From Methylophilus sp. TWE2 (GTDB lineage Bacteria; Pseudomonadota; Gammaproteobacteria; Burkholderiales; Methylophilaceae), in assembly GCF_001183865.1 (NCBI RefSeq), contig NZ_CP012020.1, positions 2,103,839 to 2,167,838 on the forward strand: a stretch of 64,000 nt of DNA. Reading direction: 5' to 3'. This document shows, one piece after another, positions 2,907-54,336 of this stretch (position 1 is the stretch's first letter; each line of letters opens with the position of its first letter). The notes beneath the pieces are model-generated. The model was not told where the DNA came from. It was given only the letters and a program-made list of their open reading frames with translations, and searched no databases. The position numbers and the translations under genes are program-made.

Positions 2907-2989
2907 AGTCTCTATCAGTTTGAATAAAATTTGAGAGGCTTCAAGTGCATTCACTCGCACTTAAAGAATTATTTTCTTTGGCATCCATT

Positions 2990-3089
2990 AAACTTTGACA
3001 ATCAAGCGATAACGCGACGTACGAGCGCAGACAGTACAATAAGTACGGCAAGCGAGTACAACAAAGTTAGCGCTTGATTTGCAAAGTTT
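2990..3089 (-). repeat. Stop-codon-linked imperfect palindrome, copy A (edd-eda gap)
   Basis: An inverted repeat of 100 bp with outer arms AAACTTTG/CAAAGTTT, then AATCAAGCG/CGCTTGATT and TAAC/GTTA. The apex is GTAC-N5-GTAC. In the direction of edd transcription the apex reads GCCGTACTTATTGTACTG. The outer arm overlaps the TAA of edd (3088-3090). It is related to copies B, C and D. It may act as an mRNA 3'-end structure or partial terminator between edd and eda. Confidence 0.8.
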
Positions 3090-37971: not shown

Positions 37972-39228
37972 ATGGACATTCAAAATTATATGAAACAACT
38001 GGGCGAGCAGGCACGTGCCGCTTCCCGTTTGATGGCAAAAGCCGACACCAACACCAAGAACCAGGCCTTGCGCAATATTGCTGCCCTGATCCGCCAGCAT
38101 GAAAAAGCACTACTAGCGGCTAACCAGCAAGACATGGACGCCGCCAAAGCCAATGGCATGGAAGCTGCCATGCTGGACCGCCTGGCCTTGAGCGAAAAAT
38201 CCGTCGCCACCATGGCAGAAGGCCTGGAGCAAATTGCCAGCCTGCCAGACCCCATCGGCGAAATGAGCAACTTCAAATACCGCCCTTCCGGTATCCAGAT
38301 CGGCCAGATGCGCGTGCCACTGGGCGTGATCGGCATTATTTACGAAGCCCGCCCTAACGTGACCGTGGACGCCGCTGGCCTGTGCATCAAATCCGGCAAC
38401 GCCTGTATCCTGCGTGGTGGCTCCGAGGCCATCCACTGCAACCAGGCGCTGGCCAAACTCGTACATCAGGGTTTGCAACAAGCGGGCTTGCCACAAGCCG
38501 CCGTGCTCGTGGTGGAAACGACAGACCGCGCTGCCGTGGGTGAACTGATCACCATGAAGCAATACGTCGATGTGATCGTGCCACGCGGTGGCAAAGGCCT
38601 GATCGAGCGCATCAGCAACGACGCCCGTATTCCAGTCATCAAGCACCTGGACGGGAACTGCCATGTGTATGTGGATGACGAAGCCGACCTGGATAAAGCC
38701 GTGCGCATTCTTGAGAATGCCAAAACCCAGCGCCTGGGCACCTGCAACACGGCAGAATCCCTGCTGGTGGCCCGTAGCATTGCCAAAACCGCCCTGCCTA
38801 AACTGGCCGACATGCTACTCAGCAAAGGCGTGGAAATCCGCGGCTGTGACGAAACCCGCGCCATCGTGCCACAAGCCAAAGCGGCGACCGAGGAAGACTA
38901 TTACACCGAATACCTGGATTCGATTATCTCGTGCAAGGTGGTCAGTGGCCTGGATGAAGCGATTGAGCACATCAACAAGTATTCCAGCCAGCACACTGAA
39001 GCCATTGTGACTGAAAACTACACCAAGGCACGCCAGTTCCTGCGCGAAGTGGATTCCAGCAGCGTCATGGTCAACGCCTCTACCCGCTTTGCTGACGGCT
39101 TTGAATATGGCTTTGGTGCAGAAATCGGTATTTCTACTGACAAGTTGCATGCACGCGGTCCGGTAGGCCTGGAAGGACTGACGTCACTCAAATATGTCGT
39201 TCTAGGTGACGGCCACGTTCGAGCATAA
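37972..39228 (+). CDS. proA: Glutamate-5-semialdehyde dehydrogenase
   Basis: Gamma-glutamyl phosphate reductase, second enzyme of proline synthesis, 418 residues. The ALDH-type catalytic cysteine is C258 in [12 protein letters not shown]. Other signatures are [33 protein letters not shown] and [20 protein letters not shown] near the C-terminus. It starts 48 bp after holA. The stop codon TAA at 39226-39228 is itself the first three bases of palindromic element D. Confidence 0.97.
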
Positions 39229-39363
39229 ATTGCATGAATTGGGCACATCACGTGGTTTCGCGGTGCTCGAAATCCTCATGTACTACAATGTACACTGCGG
39301 TTCCTGCGCTCCGTGCGTGCCCGCTCTCAATACAAAGCACTGACACTCAATTGATGCAATTTA
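39226..39363 (+). repeat. Stop-codon-linked imperfect palindrome, copy D (proA-nadD gap)
   Basis: 138 bp with outer arms TAAATTGCAT (39226-39235) and ATGCAATTTA (39354-39363), the first of which begins with the proA stop codon. The next AATTG/CAATT also pairs. The apex is ATGTAC-N6-GTACA. In the proA direction it shares CGAAATCCTCATGTAC with copy C. Confidence 0.8.
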
Positions 39364-39399
39364 ATGATTGCCGCGATGCGCTCAAAGAATGACTGAAAT

Positions 39400-40044
39400 A
39401 TGGAAGTGATCGGGATTTTTGGCGGCACCTTCAACCCCATCCACAAAGGGCATTTGGTGCTGGCCGAGACGGTGCTCGATACCCTGCACTGCACGCAAAT
39501 CCGTGTGATTCCAGCCGCCGTGCCGCCACATAAAGAAACGCCTGCCGTCACCGCGCAACACCGGGCAGAAATGGTGAAGCTGGCGATACAAGACCAGCCA
39601 AAACTTGTGCTCGATACCTGCGAGCTGGACCGCCAGGGTCCTTCGTATACCATAGAAACCTTACACCTGTTGCGTACCCGTTTTCCTGACCAGGCCTTAT
39701 GCCTGATCATGGGCCAGGACAGTTACGCCAAACTACCCACCTGGCACCGCTGGCTGGAGTTACTGAACTACTGCCACCTGCTCGTTGTACACCGGGCCGA
39801 TAAGGAAAAAACCTTAACCTTGCATCCACAGCACGAAGGAAAACTGGTTGATATCGCCACAGCCCCACAAGCATTTGCTGCGCAAGCAAATGGGCTAATC
39901 AGCTTTTTAACCCAGGCACCGCCAGATATTTCCTCAACACGCATCCGCGAGCAACTGAGCCAAAACGGCGAAATGACGATCACGGACATCCCGCCACGGG
40001 TTTGGCAGTATATTAAAGAGAATCGGTTGTACCAAAAAACATAA
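39400..40044 (+). CDS. nadD: Nicotinate-nucleotide adenylyltransferase
   Basis: A 214-residue enzyme making NaAD from NaMN and ATP, for NAD synthesis. The nucleotidyltransferase motif GIFGGTFNPIHKGHLVLAE and the C-terminal SSTRIREQL (ISSTxIR) motif are intact; LIMGQDSYAKLPTWHRW is also typical. It starts 36 bp after element D. The usual downstream rsfS is absent; instead a terminator overlaps the stop codon. Confidence 0.95.
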   Translation: MEVIGIFGGTFNPIHKGHLVLAETVLDTLHCTQIRVIPAAVPPHKETPAVTAQHRAEMVKLAIQDQPKLVLDTCELDRQGPSYTIETLHLLRTRFPDQALCLIMGQDSYAKLPTWHRWLELLNYCHLLVVHRADKEKTLTLHPQHEGKLVDIATAPQAFAAQANGLISFLTQAPPDISSTRIREQLSQNGEMTITDIPPRVWQYIKENRLYQKT

Positions 40045-40072
40045 AGCCACAGCATTTATACACTGTGGCTTT
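40043..40072 (+). terminator. Terminator overlapping the nadD stop
   Basis: AAAGCCACAG, a 10-nt loop, CTGTGGCTTT. A 10-bp perfect stem whose left arm starts in the nadD stop codon. The T run is short. It can also act on the convergent YcaO transcript. Confidence 0.65.
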
Positions 40073-40120
40073 AAACTTGTCTGATGGATAACGAATTACT
40101 CGCTGTTTATCTCGCCAGGC

Positions 40121-42319
40121 CTATATTGCAGCCCATTTAGCCCTGGCCGTATGCAGCTTCCTGTAGCTGTCTATCAGGCGGTGATGCCTGTCCAGCCCTT
40201 CCAGCTTCATGCTGGTGGGCGTCAAACCATAGAAGCGTACACTGCCGTCCACTGCGCCTAACGCAGCGTCCATGCGCGCATCGCCAAACATTTTACGAAA
40301 GTTGGTTTCGTAATCCGCCATTTCCAGTTCATCATCCAGCGTGACTTCGAGCACCACATTCAACGCTTGGTAAAACAAACCGCGTTCCAGCGTGTTGTCG
40401 TTGTATTGCAAAAAGGCGCCCACCAGGTCATGCGCTTCTTCAAACTGCTGCAAGGCGAGATGAATCAGTAGTTTTAATTCCATCACCGTGAGCTGACCCC
40501 AATCGGTGTTTTCGTCAAACTCAATGCCAATCAGGGTGGCAATATCACCGTAATCATCGAGCTCGTTATTCTCCAACCGCTCCAGCAAGGCTTCCAGTCG
40601 ATCATCGTCCAGCGTATGCAGGTTTAAAATATCCTCGCGGAACAAGAGCGCTTTATTGGTGTTATCCCACACCAGGTCTTCGACCGGATACACTTCCGAA
40701 TACCCCGGCACCAGAATGCGGCAGGCCACTGCGCCTAGCTGATCATAGACGGCGACATAAGCTTCCTTGCCCATCTCAGCCAGCATGCCAAACATGGTCG
40801 CGGCTTCTTCAGCATTTGCATGCTCGCCCTCACCCGAAAAATCCCATTCCACAAACTCGTAATCGGATTTGGCGCTGAAAAAACGCCACGACACAATGCC
40901 GCTGGAATCAATAAAATGCTCAACAAAGTTATTCGGCTCGGTCACCGCTTCGCTGGCAAAAGTTGGTTGCGGCAAATCATTCAAGCCTTCAAAGCTGCGG
41001 CCTTGCAGCAATTCGGTCAGGCTGCGTTCCAGCGCGACTTCCATGGTCGGGTGCGCGCCAAACGAAGCGAATACACCGCCGGTGCGCGGGTTCATCAGGG
41101 TCACACACATGACCGGGAATTGCCCGCCCAGTGAAGCATCCTTGACTAATACCGGGAAACCCTGCTCTTCCAGGCCCTTAATTCCGGCCACCACGCCAGG
41201 GTATTTCGCCAGCACTGCCTGTGGCACATCAGGCAAGGCGATTTCGCCTTCAATGATTTCGCGCTTCACTGCACGTTCAAAGATTTCTGACAAGCACTGC
41301 ACCTGTGCTTCCACCAGCGTATTGCCAGCGCTCATACCATTGCTCACAAACAGGTTTTCCACCAGGTTGGTCGGGAAGTAAACAGTTTCACCATCACTCT
41401 GACGCACAAACGGCAGCGAACAGATCCCGCGTTGAACATTGCCCGAGTTAGTGTCTATCAGGTGTGAACCACGCAGCTCGCCATCGGGGTTATAAATCGC
41501 CAGCGTGTATTCATCGAGTATTTCTTTCGGCAACGCATCCTTGCGGCCAGGCTTGAACCAGCGCTCGTTCGGGTAATGCACAAATTCGGCATTGGCAATC
41601 TCTTCGCCCCAGTATGATCCGGCATAAAAATGGTTGTTACTCAGCCGCTCGATATACTCGCCCAAGGCTGACGCCAGCGCGCTTTCCTTGGTTGATCCTT
41701 TGCCGTTGGTGAAGCACATTGGCGAATGCGCATCGCGGATATGCAGCGACCACACGTTAGGCACGATATTGCGCCACGAAGCGATCTCGATCTTGATGCC
41801 AAGCTCAGCCAATACGCGGGTCATATTGGCGATGGTTTGTTCTAAAGGTAAGTCTTTACCGGTGATATACGTTTGTGAGTCAGCCGAAGTATCTACAGTC
41901 AACAAGGCTTGCGCATCGGCATCCAGGTTAGCCACTTCTTCAATGACAAAGTCCGGTCCTTCTTGCACCACTTTTTTCACGGTACAGCGGTCAATCGAAC
42001 GCAAAATGCCAATGCGGTCTTTCTCAGAAATATCGCTTGGCAACTCGATCTGTATCTTGAAAATCTGCTTGTAACGGTTTTCCGGGTTGACAATATTGTT
42101 GTGCGACAGGCGGATATTCTCGGTCGGGATATTGCGCGTGCTGCAATAGAGCTTCACAAAATACGCCGCGCACAAAGCCGATGAAGCCAGAAAATAATCA
42201 AACGGCCCCGGTGCAGAGCCATCGCCCTTATAGCGAATAGGCTGGTCAGCAATCACCGTAAAGTCATCAAACTTGGCTTCAAGGCGCAGCTTATCGAGAA
42301 AATTGACTTTGACTTCCAT
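40121..42319 (-). CDS. OsmC-YcaO fusion protein
   Basis: A 732-residue protein from ATG 42319 (MEVKVNFL). Residues 1 to about 140 are an OsmC-like domain (FDYFLASSALCAAYFVKLYC contains the usual C-terminal cysteine helix). Residues about 170-560 are a YcaO domain, with the ATP-binding helix GKGSTKESALASALGEYIERLSNN visible in two parts (GKGSTKESALASA, GEYIERLSNN). A helical C-terminal region follows. YcaO enzymes activate peptide amide oxygens with ATP to make azolines, thioamides or amidines; the OsmC-fused form is widespread but of unknown substrate, and E. coli YcaO has been linked to RimO-dependent S12 methylthiolation. No precursor peptide or RimO gene is nearby. Confidence 0.88.
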   Translation of the reverse strand: MEVKVNFLDKLRLEAKFDDFTVIADQPIRYKGDGSAPGPFDYFLASSALCAAYFVKLYCSTRNIPTENIRLSHNNIVNPENRYKQIFKIQIELPSDISEKDRIGILRSIDRCTVKKVVQEGPDFVIEEVANLDADAQALLTVDTSADSQTYITGKDLPLEQTIANMTRVLAELGIKIEIASWRNIVPNVWSLHIRDAHSPMCFTNGKGSTKESALASALGEYIERLSNNHFYAGSYWGEEIANAEFVHYPNERWFKPGRKDALPKEILDEYTLAIYNPDGELRGSHLIDTNSGNVQRGICSLPFVRQSDGETVYFPTNLVENLFVSNGMSAGNTLVEAQVQCLSEIFERAVKREIIEGEIALPDVPQAVLAKYPGVVAGIKGLEEQGFPVLVKDASLGGQFPVMCVTLMNPRTGGVFASFGAHPTMEVALERSLTELLQGRSFEGLNDLPQPTFASEAVTEPNNFVEHFIDSSGIVSWRFFSAKSDYEFVEWDFSGEGEHANAEEAATMFGMLAEMGKEAYVAVYDQLGAVACRILVPGYSEVYPVEDLVWDNTNKALLFREDILNLHTLDDDRLEALLERLENNELDDYGDIATLIGIEFDENTDWGQLTVMELKLLIHLALQQFEEAHDLVGAFLQYNDNTLERGLFYQALNVVLEVTLDDELEMADYETNFRKMFGDARMDAALGAVDGSVRFYGLTPTSMKLEGLDRHHRLIDSYRKLHTARAKWAAI

Positions 42320-42604
42320 GGGGAGAATTCCAGAATAACGTTTAAAACAAAGACCGCCATTATCGCCCACAAACCACACGCCACCTAATAGCGCAGCAGC
42401 GTTGACTGCCTCACTTGCTGAAAATGGGCCAAATTAAGACTTTTAGCATTGCAAATGAACGATTTTCTTAAACCTCGTCTCGATGATCAAAGCGAGTGCG
42501 CAAACTCAAAAATGATTGGCAGCGCCCCTAAATAACCAGTGAAGGCAACAAAGTTTGTGTGATATTCTTTAACGAATAAAACTATATTCCTCGGGGTTAC
42601 CACC

Positions 42605-45226
42605 ATGGCTGCTGATGACAGAAAATTCATCACGCTGACTGATTATCTGCATGAGCCTGTCATCCATTATGATAGGGATTGCAAGCGCACTTATCTCAAT
42701 CCAGCCGCCATCAGCCTGATTGGTGAACCTGCTAAAGACCTGCAGGGCAAAACACCAAGCTCGCTCAGACCGAGTTCGGTCGCTTTACAACACTACCAGG
42801 AAAAAATTCTCGGCGTCATAGAAACTGGCACGGATACCGAGTTTGATTTTTTTCTCGACCGTCTCCCTGATGGTCCGAATGTTCACACCAAGGTCCTCAG
42901 GATTCGTGCCGTCCCTGAGCTGGATAGTGAGGGCAACGTGATCGGCGTCCTGGCGATTGCCCATGACATCACCGCACTCAAATTAAGTGAAAAGCGTTTA
43001 CGCGCGCTCATCGAAAACCATCCTGACCACATTACCCGCTTTGACCAGCATGCCAGGTACAGCTACGTCAGCTCCTCTTTCACAGCGTTATTTGGCATAG
43101 AAGAATCCGCACTGCTGGGTAAGACCCTGCTGGAATGTGATCAAATTGCCACGGCAGCAGAACGTGAAAAAATTCACCATGCGATTTTGCAAACCTTAGC
43201 GCAGGAGACATCTTGTACTCTTGAGAGCCACTGGCCGGATGACCGCATTATAGAGCTCCGCCTGGTTCAGGAAAAAGATGCCATCGGCGAGGTCTCTGGT
43301 GTGCTCTGTATCTTGCGTGATATCACCCAGCAAAAGCATTCCGAAAAAGCGTTGCTGACACTCAATCGTTCACTGCGTTTGCTGAGTAGCGCTAATCAGA
43401 CGCTCATTCATGCAGAAAACGAACAACAACTCCTTAATGACATTTGCCAGCTGGTGATTGAGTATGGTGGCTATGCACTTTCATGGGTGGGTTATCCTGA
43501 GCATGGCACTTATCAACCATTGCGCATTGCTGCCATCGCCGGTAAACCGCAGACGCATAAAAAAACGATAGCGCTTGAGCAGCAAACGCCGGAAATTAGC
43601 CTGGCCGTGAAAGCCTTTCAAACCGGTCGTGTAGAAATTATTCAGGACTACCCCAGTGCAGCCCGATTGAGCAGCCTCGGCGAGATGGCCAGCCAAGAAG
43701 GCCTGCTCTCGTGCATCGCCTTGCCACTCCTAATCACAAAACAAAAGGTAGCAAAACAAAAAGTGGCAAAACAAGCCATAGGTGTCCTCACCATTTACGC
43801 CTCCCACACCCACGCGTTTTCGGATGAAGAAGTCACCCTGCTACAAGAACTTGCCAATGATTTAGCTTTTGGTATTCAGTCGCTGCGCATCAAGGCTGAG
43901 CACCGGGAGGCAGAAAAAAAACTGGAATATCTGGCGCACCATGACCCGCTCACCGGCCTGCCTAACCGCCTGCTACTGCGCAAACGCTTTGAACAGTTCA
44001 TACAACAGTCAAACAAGCGCGATCACGGCATCGCCATGTTGTTTCTTGATATGGACAACTTCAAAGAGATTAATGACAGCTTTGGTCATGCCACCGGCGA
44101 TGCGCTGCTGATCGCAGTTGTCTGGCGGCTGGAACGATTGCTGACTGAGGCGTGCATCTTCAGCCGCGAAGGCGGTGACGAATTTGTGCTGCTCATTAAC
44201 AACACACAAGTCGCAGAGACCGTCGCGCGCACTGCCCAACAGATTCTCACCGCCATGCAAGAGCCATTTGAGGTGAGCGGTAACACACTGCATGCCTCTT
44301 TCAGTATCGGCATCAGCCTCTATCCAACCGATGGCAAGGACTTTGAAACCCTGCGCAAAAACGCAGATGCAGCGTTATACCTGGCAAAAGATTGTGGCCG
44401 CAACACCTACCGCTTTTTTGTGACGCAGATGAATGCCGACGCCCAGAAACGTATGCGCATTCAAACCGACCTGCACACCGCACTTAAAAACAATGAGTTT
44501 TTGCTGCACTACCAACCACAAATACGCCTATGCGATGGCCGCATAAGTGGCATTGAAGCCTTGATCCGCTGGCAAAATGCCGATGGGCAAATGCTCCCCC
44601 CATGTGAATTTATTCCCATTGCTGAACAAAGCGGGCTGATTATCCAAATGGGTGAGTGGGTACTGCGGGAAGCGTGTCGGCAACTGGCCGCATGGCACCA
44701 GCAAGGGCAAACCCGGCTAGTGGTTGCAGTCAATTTATCCTCCCACCAGTTCCGGCATGGCAACATTGTAGAAACCATCAGTGCAGCCCTGCATGACTTC
44801 GGGCTGCCGCCAGAATGCCTTGAACTCGAGCTGACAGAGTCCATTTTGATTCAGGACACAGAATCGGTGATCAACACCCTGCACACGCTCAAACACATCG
44901 GCGTCAAGCTCGCCATTGATGATTTTGGCACTGGCTATTCCAGCCTCTCATACCTCAAACAGCTATCAGTAGACAAACTCAAGATTGATAAATCCTTCAT
45001 CCGCGACCTTCATCAAGACAAGGACAGTGCAGAGATCGTCAGGGCCATCATCCAGCTTGGACACATCCTGCAACTCACAGTGGTGGCCGAAGGGGTAGAG
45101 ACCCAGGAGCAACTGGCTTTTCTCACCCACTGCCAATGTGACCAGATACAGGGCTATCTGTTTAGCCGCCCGGTGGCCGCAGAACACATACCGGAGATAC
45201 TTGCACGAGTAGGCATGAGGGTCTGA
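42605..45226 (+). CDS. PAS-PAS-GAF-GGDEF-EAL cyclic-di-GMP protein
   Basis: An 873-residue soluble signalling protein. Two PAS domains (about 10-125 and 135-245) and a GAF domain (about 260-430) precede GGDEF (about 445-600) and EAL (about 625-865). The cyclase signature is GGDEF at 523-527 with DPLTGLPNRLLL before it. The phosphodiesterase part has EAL at 651-653, NLSSHQF, ELELTES, IDDFGTGYSSLSYLKQL and EGVET, all apparently intact. It could make or degrade cyclic di-GMP. There is no membrane segment. Inside the GAF domain a 15-bp imperfect tandem repeat encodes KQKVA twice (about 43738-43776). Confidence 0.93.
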   Translation: MAADDRKFITLTDYLHEPVIHYDRDCKRTYLNPAAISLIGEPAKDLQGKTPSSLRPSSVALQHYQEKILGVIETGTDTEFDFFLDRLPDGPNVHTKVLRIRAVPELDSEGNVIGVLAIAHDITALKLSEKRLRALIENHPDHITRFDQHARYSYVSSSFTALFGIEESALLGKTLLECDQIATAAEREKIHHAILQTLAQETSCTLESHWPDDRIIELRLVQEKDAIGEVSGVLCILRDITQQKHSEKALLTLNRSLRLLSSANQTLIHAENEQQLLNDICQLVIEYGGYALSWVGYPEHGTYQPLRIAAIAGKPQTHKKTIALEQQTPEISLAVKAFQTGRVEIIQDYPSAARLSSLGEMASQEGLLSCIALPLLITKQKVAKQKVAKQAIGVLTIYASHTHAFSDEEVTLLQELANDLAFGIQSLRIKAEHREAEKKLEYLAHHDPLTGLPNRLLLRKRFEQFIQQSNKRDHGIAMLFLDMDNFKEINDSFGHATGDALLIAVVWRLERLLTEACIFSREGGDEFVLLINNTQVAETVARTAQQILTAMQEPFEVSGNTLHASFSIGISLYPTDGKDFETLRKNADAALYLAKDCGRNTYRFFVTQMNADAQKRMRIQTDLHTALKNNEFLLHYQPQIRLCDGRISGIEALIRWQNADGQMLPPCEFIPIAEQSGLIIQMGEWVLREACRQLAAWHQQGQTRLVVAVNLSSHQFRHGNIVETISAALHDFGLPPECLELELTESILIQDTESVINTLHTLKHIGVKLAIDDFGTGYSSLSYLKQLSVDKLKIDKSFIRDLHQDKDSAEIVRAIIQLGHILQLTVVAEGVETQEQLAFLTHCQCDQIQGYLFSRPVAAEHIPEILARVGMRV

Positions 45227-45237
45227 TCCCAAATCTT

Positions 45238-45384
45238 TTGACAAAGCCAGTTAAAGAGGCAATTGAACCCGCCAAGTTTTTTAGCGTGCGGCAACAACTG
45301 GCAGACTATGAAAAGTTTGATGCCATTATGAATAGATCAGGTGGTCAAGCGCCGATTAAAGGCGATGTGATAGATGAAGAATAG
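45238..45384 (+). pseudogene. Short coding-like remnant, unrecognised
   Basis: From TTG 45238 a 48-codon frame runs to TAG 45384, encoding a peptide ending in RQQLADYEKFDAIMNRSGGQ and then APIKGDVIDEE. The composition is protein-like (amphipathic, charged), but there is no Shine-Dalgarno, and it begins 11 bp after the EAL gene stop. It looks like the C-terminal piece of a lost small gene, perhaps an antitoxin-type protein, though I do not recognise it. A hairpin (45380-45401) overlaps its stop codon. Confidence 0.35.
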
Positions 45385-45401
45385 GCTTGATTGAGCCTAT
45401 T
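45380..45401. terminator. Hairpin between the EAL gene and rlmF
   Basis: AATAGGCT, a 6-nt loop and AGCCTATT form an 8-bp perfect stem between two convergent genes. No strong T-tract, so terminator function is likely but partial. Confidence 0.5.
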
Positions 45402-45417
45402 GAAATTAAGCCGTTGA

Positions 45418-46326
45418 TTACACGCGCGTTTTAGCAGCCACAGCTTGAAAACTCCACGCCACAAACCGGCTTTGCTTTTGGCCTTGCGCCATCTCCACCG
45501 TTTTCACCGTCACCGCCTGCACTTTCTTTAACTCGCGATACACCAGCGGCAGATTAGTCGCTTTAGAAACCAGCGTGGTAAACCACACACACTGCTTGGC
45601 AAACAGCTTGCTCTCACGGATCATGATGGTTAAAAACGCCGCCTCGCCACCCTCACAGAATAATTCATTAGATTGCCCGCCAAAATTCAATGCCTGCGGT
45701 GGCTTTTTACCCAATCCGCGCCATTTGCGCTGCGTACCCGCCAACGCTTCTTCAGCGGATGCATGAAAAGGTGGGTTACATAAGGTGACGGTGAATTGCT
45801 CGCCCGGCAACATCACGCCTTTAAAAATCGAGCTGGGGTTAGGCTGCTGGCGCACACCAATCTGCTGCTGCAACCCATTCGCCTCAATAATCTGCTGCGC
45901 ATTACGCAAAGCTTTTGCATCAATATCCACGCCCACACATTGCCAGCCATAAGTATGCGAGGCAATCAGCGGATATACCAAGTTCGCACCCGTACCAATA
46001 TCCAGCAAGCGCACTGGTTGAGTAATACTGCTCTCAGCCAATAAATCCGCCAGGTAATGCACATAATCCGCCCGCCCAGGGATAGGCGGACATAAGTAAT
46101 TCTTTGGAATATCCCACACCACCACGCCGTAATAGTGCTTGAGCAAGGCTTGGTTTAAAGCTTTCACGGCTTGCGGGTTGGCAAAGTCTATTGAATCATC
46201 GCCATAGGCGTTAGGTCGGACATAACAAGAAAGTGCCGGATGTGTTTGCACCAGCACAGAAAAATCATAGCCAGTGCAATGAAGATTATGTGGGTGCAGG
46301 ATTGAAGAGGTAGAGTCAGGCTTCAT
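45418..46326 (-). CDS. rlmF: 23S rRNA (adenine1618-N6)-methyltransferase
   Basis: A 302-residue SAM-dependent methyltransferase. LLDIGTGANLVYPLI is motif I and LCNPPFHAS is the NPPF catalytic motif of N6-adenine methyltransferases. The N-terminal HPHNLHCTGYDFSVL stretch is characteristic of RlmF. It modifies A1618 of 23S rRNA during ribosome assembly. It is single-gene and convergent with the EAL gene; the AT-rich accessory stretch starts just beyond its 5' end. Confidence 0.93.
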   Translation of the reverse strand: MKPDSTSSILHPHNLHCTGYDFSVLVQTHPALSCYVRPNAYGDDSIDFANPQAVKALNQALLKHYYGVVVWDIPKNYLCPPIPGRADYVHYLADLLAESSITQPVRLLDIGTGANLVYPLIASHTYGWQCVGVDIDAKALRNAQQIIEANGLQQQIGVRQQPNPSSIFKGVMLPGEQFTVTLCNPPFHASAEEALAGTQRKWRGLGKKPPQALNFGGQSNELFCEGGEAAFLTIMIRESKLFAKQCVWFTTLVSKATNLPLVYRELKKVQAVTVKTVEMAQGQKQSRFVAWSFQAVAAKTRV

Positions 46327-46607
46327 AACAGATTAATACAACTGCAAGAAGTTGAATTCTACAGATTATTAATCAAATTAAGAGTTTCTAGTTTTCGCTC
46401 CTACGTTTAGCTACGTTGCCTTATGCGACCACGTTTAAAAATACTCAATTGACCTTTAATAGGTCAGCCCACTCACCTGTGTAATTAAGGCTTTTAAAGC
46501 TGCGCTGCATTTGCCATGGTTTTATCTCACCCTCAGCAGCAGTTTTGATATTTACGCTATAGAATGGATCTAAATAAACCTCTTAGAATAAAAAGTGAGT
46601 TCTTAAA
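46327..46607. other. Left edge of the AT-rich accessory stretch
   Basis: A 281-bp gap between rlmF and the nuclease-like gene, turning AT-rich at about 46370. It must hold promoters for both flanking genes; no convincing promoter, direct repeat, tRNA fragment or other gene is visible. Confidence 0.5.
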
Positions 46608-48923
46608 ATGAGCCGACACAGCAAGTTAAAACGAGATACGAGAAAGAAAAAGAAAAAGGGGGTGGCAAAAGACATAAGAGAAACTGCGCCTATTAATTTA
46701 GCCCCTACACCTCCTGTAATTCAACTTTTGTCCAATCCATTTGAGGGGTTGACGGATAAAGACAGAAAACAGGCACTAATTAAAATTAGCTCGGACTCCA
46801 AAGCTAAAGTTGAAGATTCATTGAAATCCATAATTGAGATTTTCAAGAAACACGATCCAATTGCTATAGTGACTTTTTTTTCCACCTACGGCTTGGCAAT
46901 CGGAGCTGGTGATAGGGGCGTAGATAGCAACGGAGCTCCAATCAAAATCAATCAGGCGCATGTAGAAATACTACAAGCATTAGCTCTAAGCATTCCACCC
47001 AATGAGATGGGAAAACTACCAGCACTTCCACATATCACCCAGCAGATTATGGACAATATTACTGATCTATTAAGGTCTTATGCATTCTCCAGAATTAGTC
47101 CAGAATTGTTAGAAGCATCAGTGATTGATAAGGCAATTCATCATGTCCAGGAAGCCGTGCGAGGATATACGCAAACGGTGAGAAATTGGGGTTATCACAA
47201 ACAGGTGCTTACTTTTTCCAAGGAGATTTATAGTCATTTTGATGCGCAAGTTGAGGCCAAATTTGGTTTTACAGTATCTAATGTAATTGATGTTTTTGAA
47301 CAGCATTTAGAAACAATTGAAGAACAACTAACAAAGAGGTTGAATAATTTAAGAGAAATCCAAGCGCTTAAAAAACCACGGTCAATGCTGAATAAATACC
47401 ATGAGATAAACAGCGCATTAGATCGAAAAGATATAATAGAGGGGCAAGACTTGGAGTTTTTTAAATTGCCTCCTAGGAATGCGTTCATGTGGATTATGAC
47501 GCATTACGACTTGTTCTTATCTGAGATGTATAAAATTAATGAGCCAGATCTGATTGAAAAATTAAAAATTGAATCGAGCAGCCTAACTAAACTTTTGAAC
47601 TATTTTTCATTTGAGCTTGGTGAACTTGAGAAAGAAAATAAGTTATATTTTTTTCTAGATAATCCAGTATGGCGCAAGCCAGTAATATCCACATCGAGCG
47701 GTTATTACTGTGTCATGCCTCAATTGTTTTTCAGTTTTGTTTTGAACATACTTGATAACCTTATTGAGACGATTAACAAAGACAAATTACATGACAGAAG
47801 AGCGAATTATTTAGAGGGCAAGATTGAGGAAATAGTCAAAAGAAGGTTTCCGGAGTCGAAAGTAGTTTCTAGTTTGAAATGGAACCAGGACGGGGTGCAA
47901 TATGAGACCGATCTGGTTGCATTTATAGATTCGTATGCAATTATCATTGAGGCTAAAGCGCACAAAATTTCAAATGTTGCTCTTAGAGGTGCTCCAGATC
48001 GCATCAAAAGACATCTTAATGACATTTTGATTGAGCCTGGGATTCAGTCACATAGATTTGAACTTAAATTGAAGGAGCTTCGTGCCGCCCAAAATCAGAA
48101 TGACCCATTGATAGCTAAACTTCCTGTTGATATCACCACTATTAATAAAGTTATTAGAGTCTCAGTTTCCCTGGAATACTTTGCGTCATTACAGTCAAAT
48201 TTGAAGGTTTTTGAAAATACGGGATGGATTCCTGATGAATACATTCCATGTCCCTCAATGAGTATTGCTGATTTCGAGACTCTTTTTGACTTTCTAGAAC
48301 ATCCAGTACAAATTATTCACTATCTACTTAGAAGAGCTGAAATTGAATCTAGCTATAGCATCCGCGGTGATGAGTTGGATTACATGGGTTTTTATATTTC
48401 TACTTTATTCGATATGGGAAATGTTGATAAAGAAAGTGATCTTCATATCACTAATATGTCAAGCGATCTTGATCGATATTATTCGTCTAGAGATCAAGGC
48501 ATACATATAACAAAGCCTCAGCCAAAAATATCTGAATTTTTCAAAACTATTTTCAATAAGCTTGAAGAGAGAGGTATCCCTCGTTGGGCAGAAATCGGTT
48601 GTATTCTTAATTACTTCCCCCCTTACGACCAGACAAAAATAGTTAAAGCGATTAGAGAGTTGACTTTCGTAGTCAATAGGAACTGGCATGTGGAAGGGCA
48701 TAAGAATATGCTTATATATGAACCTTCTCAGTCGTCTGAGTACGCATTAGCTATCGTTTTATTTAACAATGAAAACAAAGCTCGGCGTCATGAATTTCTT
48801 GATATTGCTGCTGCGAATGGGCTTAAAGCAGACCATGTAAGGACTTGTTTGGTGATAGGAATTAATATTGATAAGAAAGATTCGCCGTATCACACCATTG
48901 GGTTATTTGATAAACCAGGATAG
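46608..48923 (+). CDS. Solitary PD-(D/E)XK nuclease-like protein
   Basis: A 771-residue protein I do not recognise as a named family. It begins with a lysine-rich tail (SKLKRDTRKKKKK), followed by about 380 mainly helical residues without a known domain. Residues about 400-455 carry a nuclease-like core: a helix with E403/E407, a strand with YETD (D435) and IIEAKAHK (E448, K450). This is the E-(X)n-D-(X)n-ExK layout of PD-(D/E)XK enzymes such as NERD/Mrr/RecB-type nucleases. The remaining 300 residues are unassigned. Base composition is clearly more AT-rich than the surrounding core genes, which suggests acquisition. No partner helicase, methylase or toxin is adjacent. A single-gene defence function is a guess. 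Confidence 0.7.
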   Translation: MSRHSKLKRDTRKKKKKGVAKDIRETAPINLAPTPPVIQLLSNPFEGLTDKDRKQALIKISSDSKAKVEDSLKSIIEIFKKHDPIAIVTFFSTYGLAIGAGDRGVDSNGAPIKINQAHVEILQALALSIPPNEMGKLPALPHITQQIMDNITDLLRSYAFSRISPELLEASVIDKAIHHVQEAVRGYTQTVRNWGYHKQVLTFSKEIYSHFDAQVEAKFGFTVSNVIDVFEQHLETIEEQLTKRLNNLREIQALKKPRSMLNKYHEINSALDRKDIIEGQDLEFFKLPPRNAFMWIMTHYDLFLSEMYKINEPDLIEKLKIESSSLTKLLNYFSFELGELEKENKLYFFLDNPVWRKPVISTSSGYYCVMPQLFFSFVLNILDNLIETINKDKLHDRRANYLEGKIEEIVKRRFPESKVVSSLKWNQDGVQYETDLVAFIDSYAIIIEAKAHKISNVALRGAPDRIKRHLNDILIEPGIQSHRFELKLKELRAAQNQNDPLIAKLPVDITTINKVIRVSVSLEYFASLQSNLKVFENTGWIPDEYIPCPSMSIADFETLFDFLEHPVQIIHYLLRRAEIESSYSIRGDELDYMGFYISTLFDMGNVDKESDLHITNMSSDLDRYYSSRDQGIHITKPQPKISEFFKTIFNKLEERGIPRWAEIGCILNYFPPYDQTKIVKAIRELTFVVNRNWHVEGHKNMLIYEPSQSSEYALAIVLFNNENKARRHEFLDIAAANGLKADHVRTCLVIGINIDKKDSPYHTIGLFDKPG

Positions 48924-49363
48924 ATTTAAACATACCTTTGTGTGAAGAGACCGAGGGGGCAGGTCTTGCAAATTCATATTTAATTACGTTGATTCTGATG
49001 CAAAAAACTAGCTTTGAACTCACAAGTAAACAAGCTTCGCTCTTTTGTTTTCTCAATCATTTTTAACCTACCAATCGCTTATGCGTCCCACATAACACTG
49101 CCGTTTCGCGCAACCGGATTTCACTGATTAACCACGTGCAGGTTGCTAGGCTACATGGGAAAAGTATCATTTAACTACAACACAAAAATTCAACTTAGAA
49201 GTGAAATCCGATGCGTTTTATGCAAAAAACCCTTTAAATTATTGAATTAACGATAAAAAAACCATCTTTACAATGTATACATCCCTAAAAATCTTTGATA
49301 TGGTAACGATATATCACTATAAATATGGTGTTTTACACCGCACAAAAGTCGGGGTGACATTGA
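48924..49363. other. AT-rich gap after the nuclease-like gene
   Basis: 440 bp without a gene. It contains the promoter of the small gene at 49364 (49295-49323) and no strong terminator, repeat or RNA gene that I can identify. Confidence 0.55.
49295..49323 (+). promoter_or_regulatory. Sigma70 promoter of the 70-aa gene
   Basis: TTGATA (49295-49300), a 17-bp spacer and TATAAA (49318-49323). Predicted +1 is near 49330, giving a leader of about 34 nt. Confidence 0.65.
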
Positions 49364-49576
49364 ATGATGAATGTTCCAGGAAAGTTTTTGTACACGATTC
49401 GTAGTGCGAATGGTGTGCTGGTTGAGAACTTGCAGGTATTCGGCAAAACACGCAGCGAGGCTGATGAAAAAATCCGCCAGATGTATTGGCGTTGCGAGAT
49501 TATCAGCTGCAATATGGTTTCTAAAGACTCGAAAGCACGTACACCACATATAAAAATGCAGTGGGTACGCCCCTAA
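49364..49576 (+). CDS. Small protein of unknown function (70 aa)
   Basis: A 70-residue basic cytoplasmic protein (KFLYTIRSANGVLVENLQVF and a C-terminal HIKMQWVRP). It has no recognised domain, signal peptide or membrane segment. It is treated as real because it has a near-consensus promoter (49295-49323), a GGGGTGA ribosome site at 49351-49357 and an intrinsic terminator after it. Two consecutive ATG codons (49364 and 49367) could both serve. An antisense 103-aa frame on the other strand is a shadow. Confidence 0.6.
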   Translation: MMNVPGKFLYTIRSANGVLVENLQVFGKTRSEADEKIRQMYWRCEIISCNMVSKDSKARTPHIKMQWVRP

Positions 49577-49625
49577 CATGGGGAGGATAGGCTGGCGTTA
49601 AGAACCTGCCCGTAATTGCGAACTC

Positions 49626-49658
49626 CAAAAGCGCTTGTTTTTACAGGCGCTTTTTTTA
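49626..49658 (+). terminator. Intrinsic terminator after the 70-aa gene
   Basis: AAAAGCGC-T-TG, a 6-nt loop and CAGGCGCTTTTTTT. An 11-bp stem with one G-T pair and a run of seven T. Confidence 0.85.
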
Positions 49659-49685
49659 TTGCTAAAAACAATGGCGGGTTAGCTG

Positions 49686-49922
49686 TTATAGGCTGAAAAG
49701 ACGAGCCACTTTTGTTTTGCCCATTGTGTCAAAATCATCGGGAACCTTGATTTGGCCACTCATGAAACCAATACGCTTAGGGTTAGCTACTGTGGCATCT
49801 AACTTGATGACTTTTACTAGAGGCTGACCAGCCTTAGCAATAATGAAAGACTCACCATTCACAGCTTGGTCTACCAATTTTGAAAGCTGTGCTTGGGCTT
49901 TTTGAATATCAATAATCTTCAT
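49686..49922 (-). CDS. Phd/YefM-type antitoxin, apparently orphan
   Basis: A 78-residue antitoxin-like protein. The N-terminal DNA-binding fold reads MKIIDIQKAQAQLSKLVDQA, VNGESFIIAKAGQPLVKV, the prevent-host-death pattern. The C-terminal tail (IGFMSGQIKVPDDFDTMG) is the type that usually neutralises a VapC/PIN toxin. The toxin normally overlaps or directly follows, yet the 110 bp downstream (to the 70-aa gene) hold only a terminator, and no PIN domain is found nearby. It may be a remnant, or it may guard against a toxin elsewhere. ATG 49922 is the natural start. Confidence 0.8.
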   Translation of the reverse strand: MKIIDIQKAQAQLSKLVDQAVNGESFIIAKAGQPLVKVIKLDATVANPKRIGFMSGQIKVPDDFDTMGKTKVARLFSL

Positions 49923-49992
49923 GATTGAGTGGGTAAGCTAGTTTTAGTGAGTCTAATTTAAAACGTCACATGACTTGCGTAAAGAGCTTTTA

Positions 49993-50403
49993 TCAAAACA
50001 ATGACAGGTTGCGAGCCTGCACGTTATTTTTAACCACTCTTCTACGCAGCAGTTTTTTCACGGGCGTGTCTGCCGTTGGCAGGTCTTCATCAAACAAGGA
50101 TTGCTGTGCGGGGAACATATCGTCTTGCATCTGCGCGGTTTGCAGGTCAAAGCGGAGTTCGCAGTCTAGCCATAAATCGGATTTTGGCACGCAGCAGCAT
50201 GGCAAAATTTCATCGGCGGCGATAAAGGCGAGTGGCAGTTCAACGTAATCGACTTCACCATCGAGCATGCGCACGCGGCAGGCACCACAAAAACCGCTCC
50301 GGCATTGATACTCTACTTCGTGGCCTGTACGTTCCAGACCTTCGAGCAGGGTTTCTTGTGGGAGCAGGCTAAAGCGGCTGTGCTGGCTGCGGATGCTGAT
50401 CAC
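49993..50403 (-). CDS. 2Fe-2S ferredoxin, YfaE-type, with C-terminal extension
   Basis: A 136-residue ferredoxin. The cluster ligands are in CRSGFCGAC and a fourth cysteine in LPCCCVP. In E. coli the equivalent YfaE (84 residues) maintains the diferric-tyrosyl cofactor of NrdB, and the order nrdA-nrdB-yfaE is the same here. The extra 50 or so residues after the fold (MFPAQQSLFDEDLP and a basic tail) are unusual. The start is GTG at 50403, without a clear ribosome site. A palindromic element (copy B) lies between it and nrdB. Confidence 0.87.
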   Translation of the reverse strand: MISIRSQHSRFSLLPQETLLEGLERTGHEVEYQCRSGFCGACRVRMLDGEVDYVELPLAFIAADEILPCCCVPKSDLWLDCELRFDLQTAQMQDDMFPAQQSLFDEDLPTADTPVKKLLRRRVVKNNVQARNLSLF

Positions 50404-50442
50404 TGTAAAAAAGTCTTTTCAAGCTTAATAGCGAAACAATCG

Positions 50443-50563
50443 ATAAGTGACTGTGCGGGATAAAGTGCAAGGCGCCCGGAACGCAACAACTGAGACAGTA
50501 CAGATAGTACGGCGAAGTTGTGAGTACCGCGCAACGCTGCAATTTGCCCGCAAAGCCACTTAT
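50443..50563 (-). repeat. Stop-codon-linked imperfect palindrome, copy B (nrdB-ferredoxin gap)
   Basis: 121 bp with arms ATAAGTG (50443-50449) and CACTTAT (50557-50563), then GCGGG/CCCGC and TGCA-type pairs. The apex is GTAC-N5-GTAC. In the nrdB direction the apex reads GCCGTACTATCTGTACTG, nearly identical to copy A. It abuts the nrdB stop codon (50563-50565). Confidence 0.8.
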
Positions 50564-51696
50564 TACAGTTCAAAATCGTTCAGGTCGTCGGCCGAAACCT
50601 CGGAATCAATCTGACCAATCAAGTATGAACTTAATTCTACTTCTTGCGGTGCGACCTGCACAGTGTCTGAGGCCAGCCAGGTGTTGATCCATGGAATCGG
50701 GTTGTTTTTGGCATTGGGGAATGCTGGTGGCAAACCGACTGAGGCCATACGGGTGTTGGTGATGTATTCCACGTATTGGCACAGAATGTCTTTATTCAAG
50801 CCAATCATTGAGCCATCTTTAAACAGGTATTCTGCCCATTCTTTTTCTTGCTCGGCGGCGGTTTTAAACATCTCAAAACATTCAGTGTGCAACTCGGCAG
50901 CGATCTCGGCGAACTCGGGGTCGTCTTGCCCTGAGCGCATGATATTGAGAATATGCTGGGTGCCGGTGAGGTGCAGGGCTTCGTCACGCGCAATCAGGCG
51001 GATGATTTTGGCGTTGCCTTCCATCACCTTGCGCTCGGCAAAGGCGAACGAGCAAGCAAAGCTGACATAAAAGCGGATGGCTTCGAGGATGTTGACGTTC
51101 ATCAGGCAGCGGTAAAGCAGCTTTTTCAGCTCGCGCTTGTTAACCACTTTAGTTTCGCCGTTGATGACATGATTGCCCTCGCCCAGCTGCGAATACAGCA
51201 TGGTCTGCTGAATCAGCTCGTCGTAATAATGGGCGATATCTGACGCACGCGCGGTGATGTTTTGATTGCGCACGATGTCGTCAAAAATGACGGAAGGGTC
51301 ATTGATGATGTTGCGGATGATGTGGGTGTATGAGCGCGAGTGGATGGTCTCGGAAAACGCCCAGGTTTCAATCCAGGTTTCCAGCTCGGGCAGCGACACC
51401 AGCGGCAGCAAAGCCACGTTCGGGCTACGGCCCTGGATGGAATCCAGCAGCGTCTGATACTTCAGGTTGCTGATGAAAATATGCTTTTCATGCTCGGGCA
51501 GGCCCTGGTAGTCAGCACGGTCTTGCGACACATCCACCTCTTCCGGACGCCAGAAGAAGGAGAGTTGCTTCTCAATCAACTTCTCGAACACGGGATATTT
51601 TTGCTGGTCATACCGCGCCACATTGACGGGCTGACCGAAGAACATGGGTTCTTTGAGTTGGTCGTTGTCGGTTTTGGTGAAGATGCTGTAGGCCAT
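50563..51696 (-). CDS. nrdB: Class Ia ribonucleotide reductase, beta subunit
   Basis: A 377-residue R2 subunit holding the diiron-tyrosyl radical. Its sequence follows E. coli NrdB very closely: [54 protein letters not shown] (iron ligands E and H), and [11 protein letters not shown]. The C-terminal tail is of the usual length for binding NrdA. ATG 51696 has AGGA 7 nt upstream. It is separated from nrdA by a palindromic element rather than a short gap. Confidence 0.97.
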
Positions 51697-51761
51697 CTGT
51701 GTTCCTAATGTTTAAGTTTAATGCTCAAACTGTTTTTTAATTGTACTTATTACCCCACTGC

Positions 51762-51906
51762 AATAAGCGTTGAATCAGTGAGCGAGCGGGATAAAGTGCA
51801 AGGCGTACGGCACGCAGAAACCGGAATGTACACGAGAGTACATGAGGATTTCGCGCACCGCACAACGCAGCAATTTGCCCGCGCAGCCACTGAGTCAATG
51901 CTTATT
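51762..51906 (-). repeat. Stop-codon-linked imperfect palindrome, copy C (nrdA-nrdB gap)
   Basis: 145 bp with arms AATAAGC-N-TTGA-N-TCAGTG and their complement, then GCGGG/CCCGC, TGC/GCA and AACG-type pairs. The apex is TGTAC-N6-GTACA. The right arm ends at the nrdA stop (51906-51908). In the nrdA direction it shares CGAAATCCTCATGTAC with copy D. Confidence 0.82.
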
Positions 51907-54185
51907 TAAATTTTGCAGGCTCCGCTGGCACACCCATCGTCTTCCGCTTCCGTGCCGCCTTCAGTCGCACCGTCTCTGGTGTTGTGGTAGTACAGCGTTT
52001 TAATGCCCAGCTTGTACACTTGCAGCAAGTCTTTGAGCAATTGCCTCATGGGCACACGGCCACCTTCAAAACGGGTCGGGTCGTAGTTGGTGTTGGCAGA
52101 AATCGATTGATCGACAAACTTCTGCATGATGCCCACCAGCTTAAGGTAACCGTCATTGCTTGGAATTTTCCATAGCAACTGGTACTGGTCACGCAGGCGG
52201 TCGATCTCTGGCACGACCTGGCGCAGGATACCGTCTTTGGATTGCTTGACTGTCACTAGGCCGCGCGGTGGCTCAATACCATTGGTGGCGTTGGCGATCT
52301 GGCTGGACGTCTCAGAAGGCATTAGCGCAGTCAGGGTAGAGTTGCGCAGGCCGTCTTTCTGGATTTCTTTACGCAGGCTTTCCCAGTCGAGCAGCAATGG
52401 TTCGCTGCAGACGGCGTCCAAGTCTTTTTTGTAGGTATCAATCGGCAAAATACCTTTGGCGTAGGTGGTTTCGTTAAACGCACCACATGGGCCAAATTCG
52501 CGGGACAACTGCACGGAGGCTTTGAGCAGGTAATACTGAATCGCCTCAAAGGTGCGGTGGGTCAGTCCCAGTGCGGCTTCATCGGTGTAGCTGGTGCCGT
52601 TTTTCGCCAGGTAGTAAGCGTAGTTGATGACGCCCACGCCGAGTGAACGGCGCTTGTTGGTGGCGTTGAGGGCCGCTTTGACCGGGTAATCCTGGTATTC
52701 AAGCAGGGCATCAAGCGCACGCACCACCAGGTCAGCCAGGCCTTCGAGCTCGTCCAAAGACTCCAGCGCACCCAGGTTGAATGCGGATAAGGTGCACAAC
52801 GCGATTTCGCCTTCTTCATCATTGATGTCGTTCAATGGATGGGTCGGCAGCGCGATTTCCATGCACAGGTTGGACTGACGCACCGGTGCCACGGTCGGGT
52901 CAAACGGGCTGTGCGTGTTGCAGTGATCTACGTTCTGGATGTAGATACGGCCAGTCCCGGCACGCTCCTGCATCATGAGTGAGAACAGGTCTACCGCAGG
53001 CATGGTGCGCTTGCGGATGCTGTCATCAGCCTCGTATTGCGTGTACAGGCGCTCAAACTCGTCCTGGTCGGCAAAGAAGGCGTCATACATGCCGGGCACA
53101 TCGTGTGGTGAGAACAAGGTAATGTTCTGGCCTTTGATCAGGCGCTGGTACATCAGGCGGTTGATCTGCACGCCGTAGTCCAAATGACGCACACGGTTTT
53201 CTTCCACGCCTCGGTTGTTTTTCAGAACCAGTAATGACTCGACTTCGAGGTGCCACAGCGGGTAGAACAAGGTCGCCGCCCCACCACGTACACCGCCCTG
53301 TGAGCAGGACTTCACGGCAGATTGGAACAGTTTGTAGAACGGCAGGCAACCGGTATGCTGCGCTTCACCACCACGGATCTCACTGCCCAGCGCGCGGATG
53401 CGGCCCGCGTTGACGCCGATACCGGCACGTTGTGACACGTATTTGACAATCGCGCTCGACGTGGCATTGATACTATCGAGGCTGTCGTCACACTCAATCA
53501 GCACGCAGGAGCTGAACTGGCGTGTAGGCGTACGCACACCGGACATGATAGGCGTAGGCAATGAGATCTTGAAGGTAGAAACGGCATCGTAGAAGCGCTT
53601 GATCAGATCCAGTCTTGCCTGGCCTTTGTAATTGGCAAACAGGCTCATGGCGACCAGGATGTAGAGGAACTGCGGGCTCTCGTAGATTTTCTTGGTGACA
53701 CGGTTTTGCACCAGGTACTTACCCTCCAGCTGCTTGACCGCAGCATAGGAGAAATTGAGGTCACGCCAGTGGTCAATATATCCATTCAGCGTATCGAATT
53801 CTTCACGGCTGTAATCGCTCAGCAAATGTTTGTCGTATTTGCCGAGCTCGACCAGATTGGTGACGTGGTCAAACAGGTGTGGTGGCTCAAACTGGCCGTA
53901 GGCGATCTTGCGCAGGTGAAAAATCGACAGGCGTGCAGCCAGGTACTGGTAATCCGGTGTTTCTTCCGAGATCAGGTCAGCCGCGGACTTGATGATAGTT
54001 TCATGGATATCATCAGTACGGATGCCATCGTAAAACTGGATATGGGAGCGCAACTCAACTTGTGACACCGAGACGTTATTGAGGCCTTGTGCAGCCCAGT
54101 CAATGACGCGGTGAATCTTGTCGAGGTTAATAGGTTCCTTGCGGCCATCGCGTTTCGTGGCCTGCATGGATTCGTATTGTGACAT
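51906..54185 (-). CDS. nrdA: Class Ia ribonucleotide reductase, alpha subunit
   Basis: A 759-residue R1 subunit reducing ribonucleoside diphosphates. An N-terminal ATP-cone (KRDGRKEPINLDKIHRVIDW) gives allosteric control. Active-site residues lie in SSCVLIECDDSLDS and SNLCMEIALPTHP, and the C-terminal shuttle cysteines in DDGCASGACKI. The sequence is very close to the enterobacterial enzyme. The start is ATG 54185 (MSQYES) with GGGAG 6 nt upstream; the longer frame to 54224 is dropped. A cobalamin riboswitch and its own promoter lie upstream, so B12 probably represses this B12-independent enzyme. Confidence 0.97.
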   Translation of the reverse strand: MSQYESMQATKRDGRKEPINLDKIHRVIDWAAQGLNNVSVSQVELRSHIQFYDGIRTDDIHETIIKSAADLISEETPDYQYLAARLSIFHLRKIAYGQFEPPHLFDHVTNLVELGKYDKHLLSDYSREEFDTLNGYIDHWRDLNFSYAAVKQLEGKYLVQNRVTKKIYESPQFLYILVAMSLFANYKGQARLDLIKRFYDAVSTFKISLPTPIMSGVRTPTRQFSSCVLIECDDSLDSINATSSAIVKYVSQRAGIGVNAGRIRALGSEIRGGEAQHTGCLPFYKLFQSAVKSCSQGGVRGGAATLFYPLWHLEVESLLVLKNNRGVEENRVRHLDYGVQINRLMYQRLIKGQNITLFSPHDVPGMYDAFFADQDEFERLYTQYEADDSIRKRTMPAVDLFSLMMQERAGTGRIYIQNVDHCNTHSPFDPTVAPVRQSNLCMEIALPTHPLNDINDEEGEIALCTLSAFNLGALESLDELEGLADLVVRALDALLEYQDYPVKAALNATNKRRSLGVGVINYAYYLAKNGTSYTDEAALGLTHRTFEAIQYYLLKASVQLSREFGPCGAFNETTYAKGILPIDTYKKDLDAVCSEPLLLDWESLRKEIQKDGLRNSTLTALMPSETSSQIANATNGIEPPRGLVTVKQSKDGILRQVVPEIDRLRDQYQLLWKIPSNDGYLKLVGIMQKFVDQSISANTNYDPTRFEGGRVPMRQLLKDLLQVYKLGIKTLYYHNTRDGATEGGTEAEDDGCASGACKI

Positions 54186-54336
54186 TATTGGCTCCCAATT
54201 CCGGCAGCGAAGGTGACCTGACAAGTGGCAAAGACATCATTTTTTCAGGCCGAGCAACCCCTATGTCGAGCCCGCTTCTGAAAAAACTGTATCTGCCGAG
54301 GACACCCCGCCCCAAACGTTAACAAGAAAAAAATCA

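Follow-up and report, generated by a model that had tools for sequence, protein, structure and literature searches.

A dispersed family of mobile palindromes beside stop codons in Methylophilus

REP elements, which are associated with tyrosine transposases (RAYTs) and which like the element reported here are extragenic palindromes, lie near stop codons; integron attC sites carry conserved outer core boxes and a variable apex; and YPAL insertions are reportedly found near stop codons. In the part of PMC2229807 that deals with them, YPAL/RU-2 elements are described as intergenic and mobile, with target duplications and a possible effect on upstream transcripts, and ERIC (IRU/RU-1) as a 127-bp stem-loop repeat that is co-transcribed with its neighbours and has an orientation-dependent effect on the mRNA. 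A family of palindromes with a likeness to both, and similar in size to YPAL/RU-2, was analysed in Methylophilus sp. TWE2 and its relatives. Four copies (A, B, C and D; Table 1) lie in a 64,000-nt stretch of the TWE2 genome (contig NZ_CP012020.1, positions 2,103,839-2,167,838), hereafter called the window.

The account that we prefer, to which a probability of roughly 0.6 was given, is that of a MITE-like (miniature inverted-repeat transposable element) family, with an asymmetric, conserved apex between imperfectly paired stems and with terminal repeats and short target duplications: the element would be inserted in trans, copies in sense orientation after a stop codon would be retained, and the two arms would be kept complementary by template switching.

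Four palindromes and their relatives

Palindromes A, B, C and D all belong to one dispersed family. The sequence, its inverted repeats and its folds confirmed the four palindromes and, as an earlier note on this DNA had described, each carries an apex of two GTAC tetramers separated by 5 or 6 nt. The same note had proposed that the copies share their apices in pairs: C and D do have CGAAATCCTCATGTAC in common (read in the sense of the upstream gene), but the sequence given for A and B (GCCGTACTNTNTGTACTG) did not hold for A, the apex of which is GCCGTACTTATTGTACTG. Its claim that the outer arms are copy-specific stands for A, C and D, which diverge, but not for B, whose arm (AATAAGTG) has the consensus sequence of the family. 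When inverted repeats were scanned without gaps, A (score 19) and C (17) exceeded the maximum of 16 found in 20 Markov-simulated windows, whereas D (14) and B (13) stayed under it; for these two, the case against chance is made by their homologous copies and not by the inverted-repeat score.

A covariance model (R1) was trained on 14 copies of the TWE2 genome, including B, C and D and excluding A. It recovered A at E 2.7e-5 and D, a member of the training set, at E 1.5e-18, and gave 23 matches in the TWE2 genome and 252 matches in 22 genomes of the genus, with at least one in each (22/22). A blastn search of the TWE2 genome with C returned 32 places with E values of 10 or less (22 below 1e-4), several of the places being two halves of a single copy. 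The element is dispersed in the genome and in the genus. For the analyses of the genus, the best 123 of the 252 matches were used, of which one was unreadable and one was a duplicate; the remaining 121 copies came from 20 genomes (16 copies from TWE2) and represented 65 independent sites. Gene ends were assigned with our own hexamer-based caller, and individual assignments may be wrong.

The motif GTAC-N-GTAC on its own was discarded as a detector, being too unspecific (146 places in the TWE2 genome). The 146 occurrences of GTAC-N3-9-GTAC, set against 850 for the reversed pattern, point to a scarcity of GTAC in the TWE2 genome. Several copies contain, inside an arm or the apex, a second module with inverted repeats, which is GGTTAGCC- or GTTAGTTGT-like and some tens of nt long: those at 750120-750291, 826706-826908 and 929221-929366 of the TWE2 genome, and the proA-nadD copy of genome G004 (L112).

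The family extends to several phyla. A scan for the type II apex (that of C and D), with one genome per species, gave at least 120 stretches, and the 80 loci among the matches listed belonged to Chlorobiota, Desulfobacula (Thermodesulfobacteriota), Manganitrophus (Nitrospirota) and many Beta- and Gammaproteobacteria (Pseudomonadota). A model of 42 apex-bearing sequences, in which the invariance of the apex is by construction, had matches with E values of 1e-6 or lower in 57 of the 299 genomes sampled from the phylum of TWE2. Among phages, copy C matched one record, a Salmonella contig, and the viral scan gave 1 contig. No match to copy C was found in the plasmid collection; in the same collection the element of a Nitrosomonadales bacterium (L277) gave partial matches in 7 records, at least two of them chromosome-sized, and a pseudomonad-type element gave partial matches in 14 records, 13 of them from Pseudomonas.

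Mobility and placement after stop codons

The element has transposed in the genus, as is seen from target duplications above the null and from its presence or absence at orthologous sites. Complete copies are about 150 bp long and end in GGATACACGGAATAAGTG or relatives of this sequence; with up to 3 mismatches allowed, the terminal inverted repeat GGATACACGGAATAAGTG occurs 12 times in the TWE2 genome, 11 times at element ends. An exact 4-bp target duplication was present at 9 of the 15 genus sites with recognisable ends, and 3 more sites matched at 3 of 4 positions, while pairing the flanks of different sites gave 4.25% exact matches. Some of these 4-bp flanking repeats include TA (CTAA, TTAG and TAAA). 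Chlorobiota copies with GGGCACCTCTA-like ends showed an exact 4-bp repeat in 7 of 14 cases, a count for which no null was computed.

Presence and absence were read by one of us at two loci of the genus. Downstream (3') of nrdB, 16 orthologous loci contained a full element (4), a short hairpin without the apex (4) or none (8); in the nrdA-nrdB gap, 16 loci contained a type II copy (12), a type I copy (1) or none (3). In the nrdA-nrdB gap of genome G006 (L077), a second element of opposite orientation was observed to adjoin the copy orthologous to C, upstream of nrdB. At the ucpA-cysP locus of Escherichia coli, the element is present in strains K-12 and J6 and missing from the four other strains compared; in a spread of 30 among the records listed, 8 spanned the whole query, 21 were without 133-147 bp and 1 matched elsewhere.

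The ucpA-cysP alleles also bear on the origin of the outer arms, which might come from the target if the element were inserted into sites with pre-existing dyad symmetry; the YPAL target spans or adjoins such symmetry, according to the part of PMC2229807 concerned with it. The K-12 element is bounded by two nearly identical direct repeats, each of them almost a palindrome in its own right. Two of the four element-less alleles hold a 13-nt stretch with a short palindrome, but the other two hold nothing. The element-less nrdA-nrdB flank of genome G008 shows a 4-bp dyad only and otherwise diverges, and a palindromic target would leave later covariation at a single site unexplained. We consider this origin of the arms to be unlikely.

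The earlier note had placed each of the four palindromes against the stop codon of the upstream gene, and this was confirmed: in the inverted-repeat scan the complementary arms of A and D start at the T of the TAA stop (in the minimum-energy fold of D, two extra bases are paired ahead of TAA), and in the folds of B and C the outermost paired base is the last base of the stop codon. Stop linkage and sense orientation were upheld over the 65 independent genus sites, although the linkage is not a general property of the sites: a stop codon lay within 20 nt on the left side at 33 sites and on the right side at 10, one site being counted on both sides. The 55 codirectional gaps had a stop within 20 nt in 38 cases and a start within 20 nt in 7, against 17.5 expected for each under uniform placement (P 4e-11 for stops). 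A preference for TAA stops as the sole cause of this linkage was rejected as insufficient: of the 33 linked sites, 26 have TAA (odds ratio 2.1, P 0.11). Outside the genus, 8 of the 10 copies found in Yersinia aleksiciae were examined; 6 of them follow a sense stop at a distance of 3-17 nt, and one of these six also lies 1 nt from a stop on its other side.

Sites with and without recognisable ends behaved as two populations, under a rule for recognisable ends that was set after the data had been seen. Left stop linkage was found at 2 of 17 sites with recognisable ends (15 from the duplication test and two added by eye) and at 31 of the 48 others (Fisher P 2e-4), and the ratio of sense to antisense copies was 31:6 (P 4e-5) at sites without recognisable ends and 1:3 at sites with them. 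Mainly from this split, we infer that insertion was scattered and that sense copies abutting stops were then retained, often inside operons.

Complementarity of the arms

The outer arms match within copies and differ from copy to copy, as the earlier note had described. Among the 121 genus copies, the outer 30-nt arms reached a score of at least 10 in 43% of comparisons within copies and in 4% between sites, and the copy's own right arm ranked in the top 5% for 53 of 121 copies and for 30 of 65 sites. In the cross-phylum set, the mean arm score was 27.9 within and 14.8 between copies, and 54% of copies were above the 95th percentile of the null.

Changes on both sides of a pair were counted at ten orthologous sites (525 pairs), where 79 two-sided pair types were found, 42 of the transition type and 37 of the transversion type; the mismatches comprised G-U 65, A-C 65 and other 142. 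These counts are of pair types per position, not of events, and two of the ten sites are antisense to the gene (when these are reversed, G-U becomes 67 and A-C 63). In the nine edd-eda sequences compared, changes on both sides were found in 5 of 14 outer pairs, all of the transversion type and none through G-U, and the covariation score was above those of all 500 shuffles. In the nrdA-nrdB gap three pairs had changed on both sides, a result that adds little because a structure slid by two columns scores alike (0.034 against 0.032).

Such complementarity could also be maintained by selection on the transcript, a serious rival that the earlier note had itself put forward: the hairpins would be kept as mRNA 3' or intercistronic hairpins, with RNA pairing selected from the stop codon outwards. 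The sense bias of the copies without recognisable ends fits this reading, and three of the palindromes lie within codirectional, operon-like gene pairs (A in edd-eda, D in proA-nadD and C in nrdA-nrdB); in 16 of the 21 genus orthologues of edd, a GTAC-GTAC apex lies no more than 120 nt from the stop. Counted by copy, the transcribed strand had the higher stability in 51 of 80 and in 20 of 28, and the inner stem of the cross-phylum set held more G-U than A-C mismatches (18 against 11 unique contexts). Counted per site, however, the transcribed strand was more stable at 30 of 55 (P 0.59), which weakens the case for RNA selection, and the mean energies at edd-eda are equal (sense -33.9, antisense -33.4). 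A-C exceeded G-U in the outer arms of the cross-phylum set (36 against 16 unique contexts; with the inner stem, 47 against 34, P 0.18) and in sense-oriented copies (33 against 20, family-fixed mismatches counted in), and the mismatch counts, these fixed mismatches included, track the frame of the element rather than that of transcription. Because G-U was no commoner than A-C, and 37 of the 79 two-sided pair types were of the transversion type, correction of the arms at the DNA level, by template switching, is favoured. The pairing data lend little support to RNA selection, which we judge to be probably not what holds these arms together.

The earlier note had also raised the possibility that the palindrome grows when DNA next to one of its ends is copied to the opposite end. 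New stems are known to arise by template switching (PMC8794818, in the part that concerns stem formation), and at 17 of the 33 left-linked sites the aligned arm reached at least 1 base into the coding sequence before the stop; several of these alignments are weak, and the count is not set against a null. At the few empty and filled sites examined, copying of this kind was not seen, no pair being found in which the right arm had been newly copied from the coding end, and part of the arm variation is an ordinary terminal repeat with its target duplication. Lengthening by this route appears improbable to us. An open frame reaching into the arm was sought for locus L046; none of at least 30 amino acids with a start ends there.

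Several results weigh against the account of insertion, retention and arm correction by template switching. Most copies fall short of the arm score of 10, and copies with unmatched arms exist (L038 and L268). At edd-eda, the G-U pairs number 54 in the sense and 26 in the antisense orientation, which favours RNA selection, and the stepwise point changes there, with unpaired intermediates in genomes G006, G013 and G014, fit either view. The split into two populations carries the drawback of its late rule. Sense preference is less marked outside the genus: in the cross-phylum set, 65 loci (80 less 15 with too little flank) had a stop no more than 60 nt from the apex in 34 cases for the sense side and in 20 for the other side, and among 59 usable copies of the 60 retrieved from the phylum, stops were found on the sense side only in 21, on the antisense side only in 12, on both in 13 and on neither in 13, random positions giving 14-17% per side. 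In two further groups, duplications did not exceed what chance would give. Among enteric copies (33, including one from Aeromonas; 14 with readable ends), 9 of the readable ones had identical 3-bp flanks, mostly TAA, but the null is as high as 41.6% because nearly all flanks are TAA; pseudomonad-type copies (22, of which 9 had readable ends) showed an exact 3-bp repeat in 1 of 9, with a null of 14.4%. No transposase-bearing partner was found, the ends of the family being paired only at element length (46 places in 22 genomes), and no DDE_Tnp_1 gene was detected in the TWE2 genome, other transposase families not having been searched. A DDE_Tnp_1 gene about 0.8 kb from the element of genome G012 was rejected as a partner, since a motif scan of the locus placed the family ends at the element and gave no matching pair on either side of the transposase.

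The two copies with unmatched arms, L038 (positions 1896846-1896956 of the TWE2 genome) and L268 (genome G020), are hybrids at the same gene, with the left arm of one version and the right arm of the other. They are possible intermediates of arm exchange.

On the preferred account, a putative transposase acting in trans would insert the element at short A+T-rich sites. Where the site is a stop codon, the left copy of the target would restore the codon, and the insertion would be silent. Sense insertions that immediately follow a stop, in many cases between genes transcribed together, would be kept, most likely because a 3' hairpin does no harm to the message upstream or is of use to it. The arms would drift and yet stay complementary mainly by switching of the replication template from arm onto arm (quasipalindrome correction), a process that would give copy-specific arms without a G-U signature. 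With many independent, oriented hairpins in one genus, the family offers a natural test of RNA selection against DNA template switching.

The family is also a case of a mobile element settling beside central genes (nrdAB, edd-eda and proA-nadD) by way of the stop-codon region. The features of the window are collected in Table 1, in which the name proA was inferred from gene length and from a nadD-like neighbour. In a scan of positions 38000-53000 of the window, outside of which A lies, palindromes B, C and D were absent from the list of intrinsic-terminator-like structures. A Cobalamin riboswitch (102.6 bits) was found upstream of nrdA at 54321-54542 (-) and, further upstream, a TonB-dependent receptor gene (54827-57112) and a FecR-domain gene (57186-58202).

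Table 1. Palindromes, apices and neighbouring genes, in coordinates of the window.
Feature	Position	Strand	Description
Palindrome A	2989..3090	-	In the edd-eda gap; type I apex; arm from edd TAA
Apex of A	3034..3046 (genome 2106872-2106884)	-	GTAC-5 nt-GTAC
Palindrome D	39226..39363	+	In the proA-nadD gap; type II apex; arm from proA TAA
Apex of D	39280..39293	+	GTAC-6 nt-GTAC
Palindrome B	50443..50565	-	Type I apex; 3' of nrdB; ends AATAAGTG
Apex of B	50498..50510	-	GTAC-5 nt-GTAC
Palindrome C	51762..51908	-	Type II apex; between nrdA and nrdB
Apex of C	51828..51841	-	GTAC-6 nt-GTAC
edd (6-phosphogluconate dehydratase)	3088..4902	-	Pfam ILVD_EDD_N, ILV_EDD_C; upstream gene of A
eda-type aldolase gene	2277-2960		Next after edd
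proA-like aldehyde dehydrogenase family gene	37972..39228	+	Pfam Aldedh; upstream gene of D
nrdB	50563..51696	-	Pfam Ribonuc_red_sm; upstream gene of B
nrdA	51906..54224	-	Pfam Ribonuc_red_lgC, ATP-cone; upstream gene of C
2Fe-2S ferredoxin-domain gene	49993-50403	-	After nrdB and B, about 40 nt past the palindrome

sX9 and the comparison with known systems

None of the four palindromes reached the gathering score of any family in Rfam release 15. At one of 16 loci, the Yersinia aleksiciae element L314, the Xanthomonas small RNA (sRNA) family sX9 (RF02228) scored above its cut-off (44.6 bits, cut-off 44). Of 8 elements from other lineages, 7 gave sX9 matches under the cut-off, with E values no higher than 0.15, and so did six TWE2 copies, on the same strand and at 24.4-32.7 bits (C 24.4, D 32.7). 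In the two alignments inspected, the match starts at the GTAC apex and runs into the right arm on the same strand; sX9 thus seems to correspond to the right half of the element. The element L314 (3174-3366) was also observed to adjoin a TPP riboswitch on the opposite strand.

These matches, in Yersinia aleksiciae, in other lineages and in the TWE2 copies, could conversely mean that the right half is a genuine trans-acting sRNA gene and the palindrome incidental. Against this, the model covers half of a hairpin, the copies follow stop codons and the arms vary, and we think a gene of this kind very unlikely. In Rfam, sX9 is a 76-nt sRNA gene, while the element is about twice that size and has a left arm, terminal repeats and target duplications. 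The family sX9 ranks among the 20 most prevalent sRNAs in one survey, in the part of PMC9029176 that reports prevalence. The matches suggest that what Rfam holds as an abundant sRNA is one half of a mobile palindrome, and many genome annotations would be affected. Searches of open-licence PMC text with the sequence strings returned papers that were unrelated by title, the two bacterial ones inspected carrying the string in a primer and in a CRISPR spacer; with the literature covered in this way, sX9, met through Rfam, was the sole earlier record encountered.

A wider proposition was framed tentatively and is judged less likely than not to hold as a whole: a single hairpin family would extend over at least four phyla, its conserved asymmetric apex serving as the mark for a mobilising enzyme that probably acts on the folded single strand; sense copies at stops would be domesticated, with arms held by DNA template switching and not by RNA selection, and sX9 would be a half-element.

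Compared with the described systems, the layout of the element is the reverse of that of attC, compared by description: here the apex is conserved and the outer arms are variable. REP elements are 20-40 bp long with GTAG or CGTC tags (PMC3733652, in the part describing them), whereas the present element measures about 100-170 bp and has GTAC at its apex. ERIC has TA termini and a 7-bp terminal repeat according to its description in PMC2229807, and differs by this description from the 4-bp duplications and longer terminal repeats found here. The target duplications of YPAL/RU-2 are given as 3-26 bp in the corresponding part of PMC2229807, against 4 bp here in two lineages, and the RU-2 sequence as printed in PMC2759123, when compared by eye and without alignment, has no GTAC apex. 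The quasipalindrome template switch, which makes and repairs stems in one event (PMC8794818, in the part on this event), is a mutation process and not an element family; for the present arms it was deduced solely from the pattern of changes. By its shared terminal inverted repeats and its target duplications, the family is MITE-like, small and probably non-autonomous.

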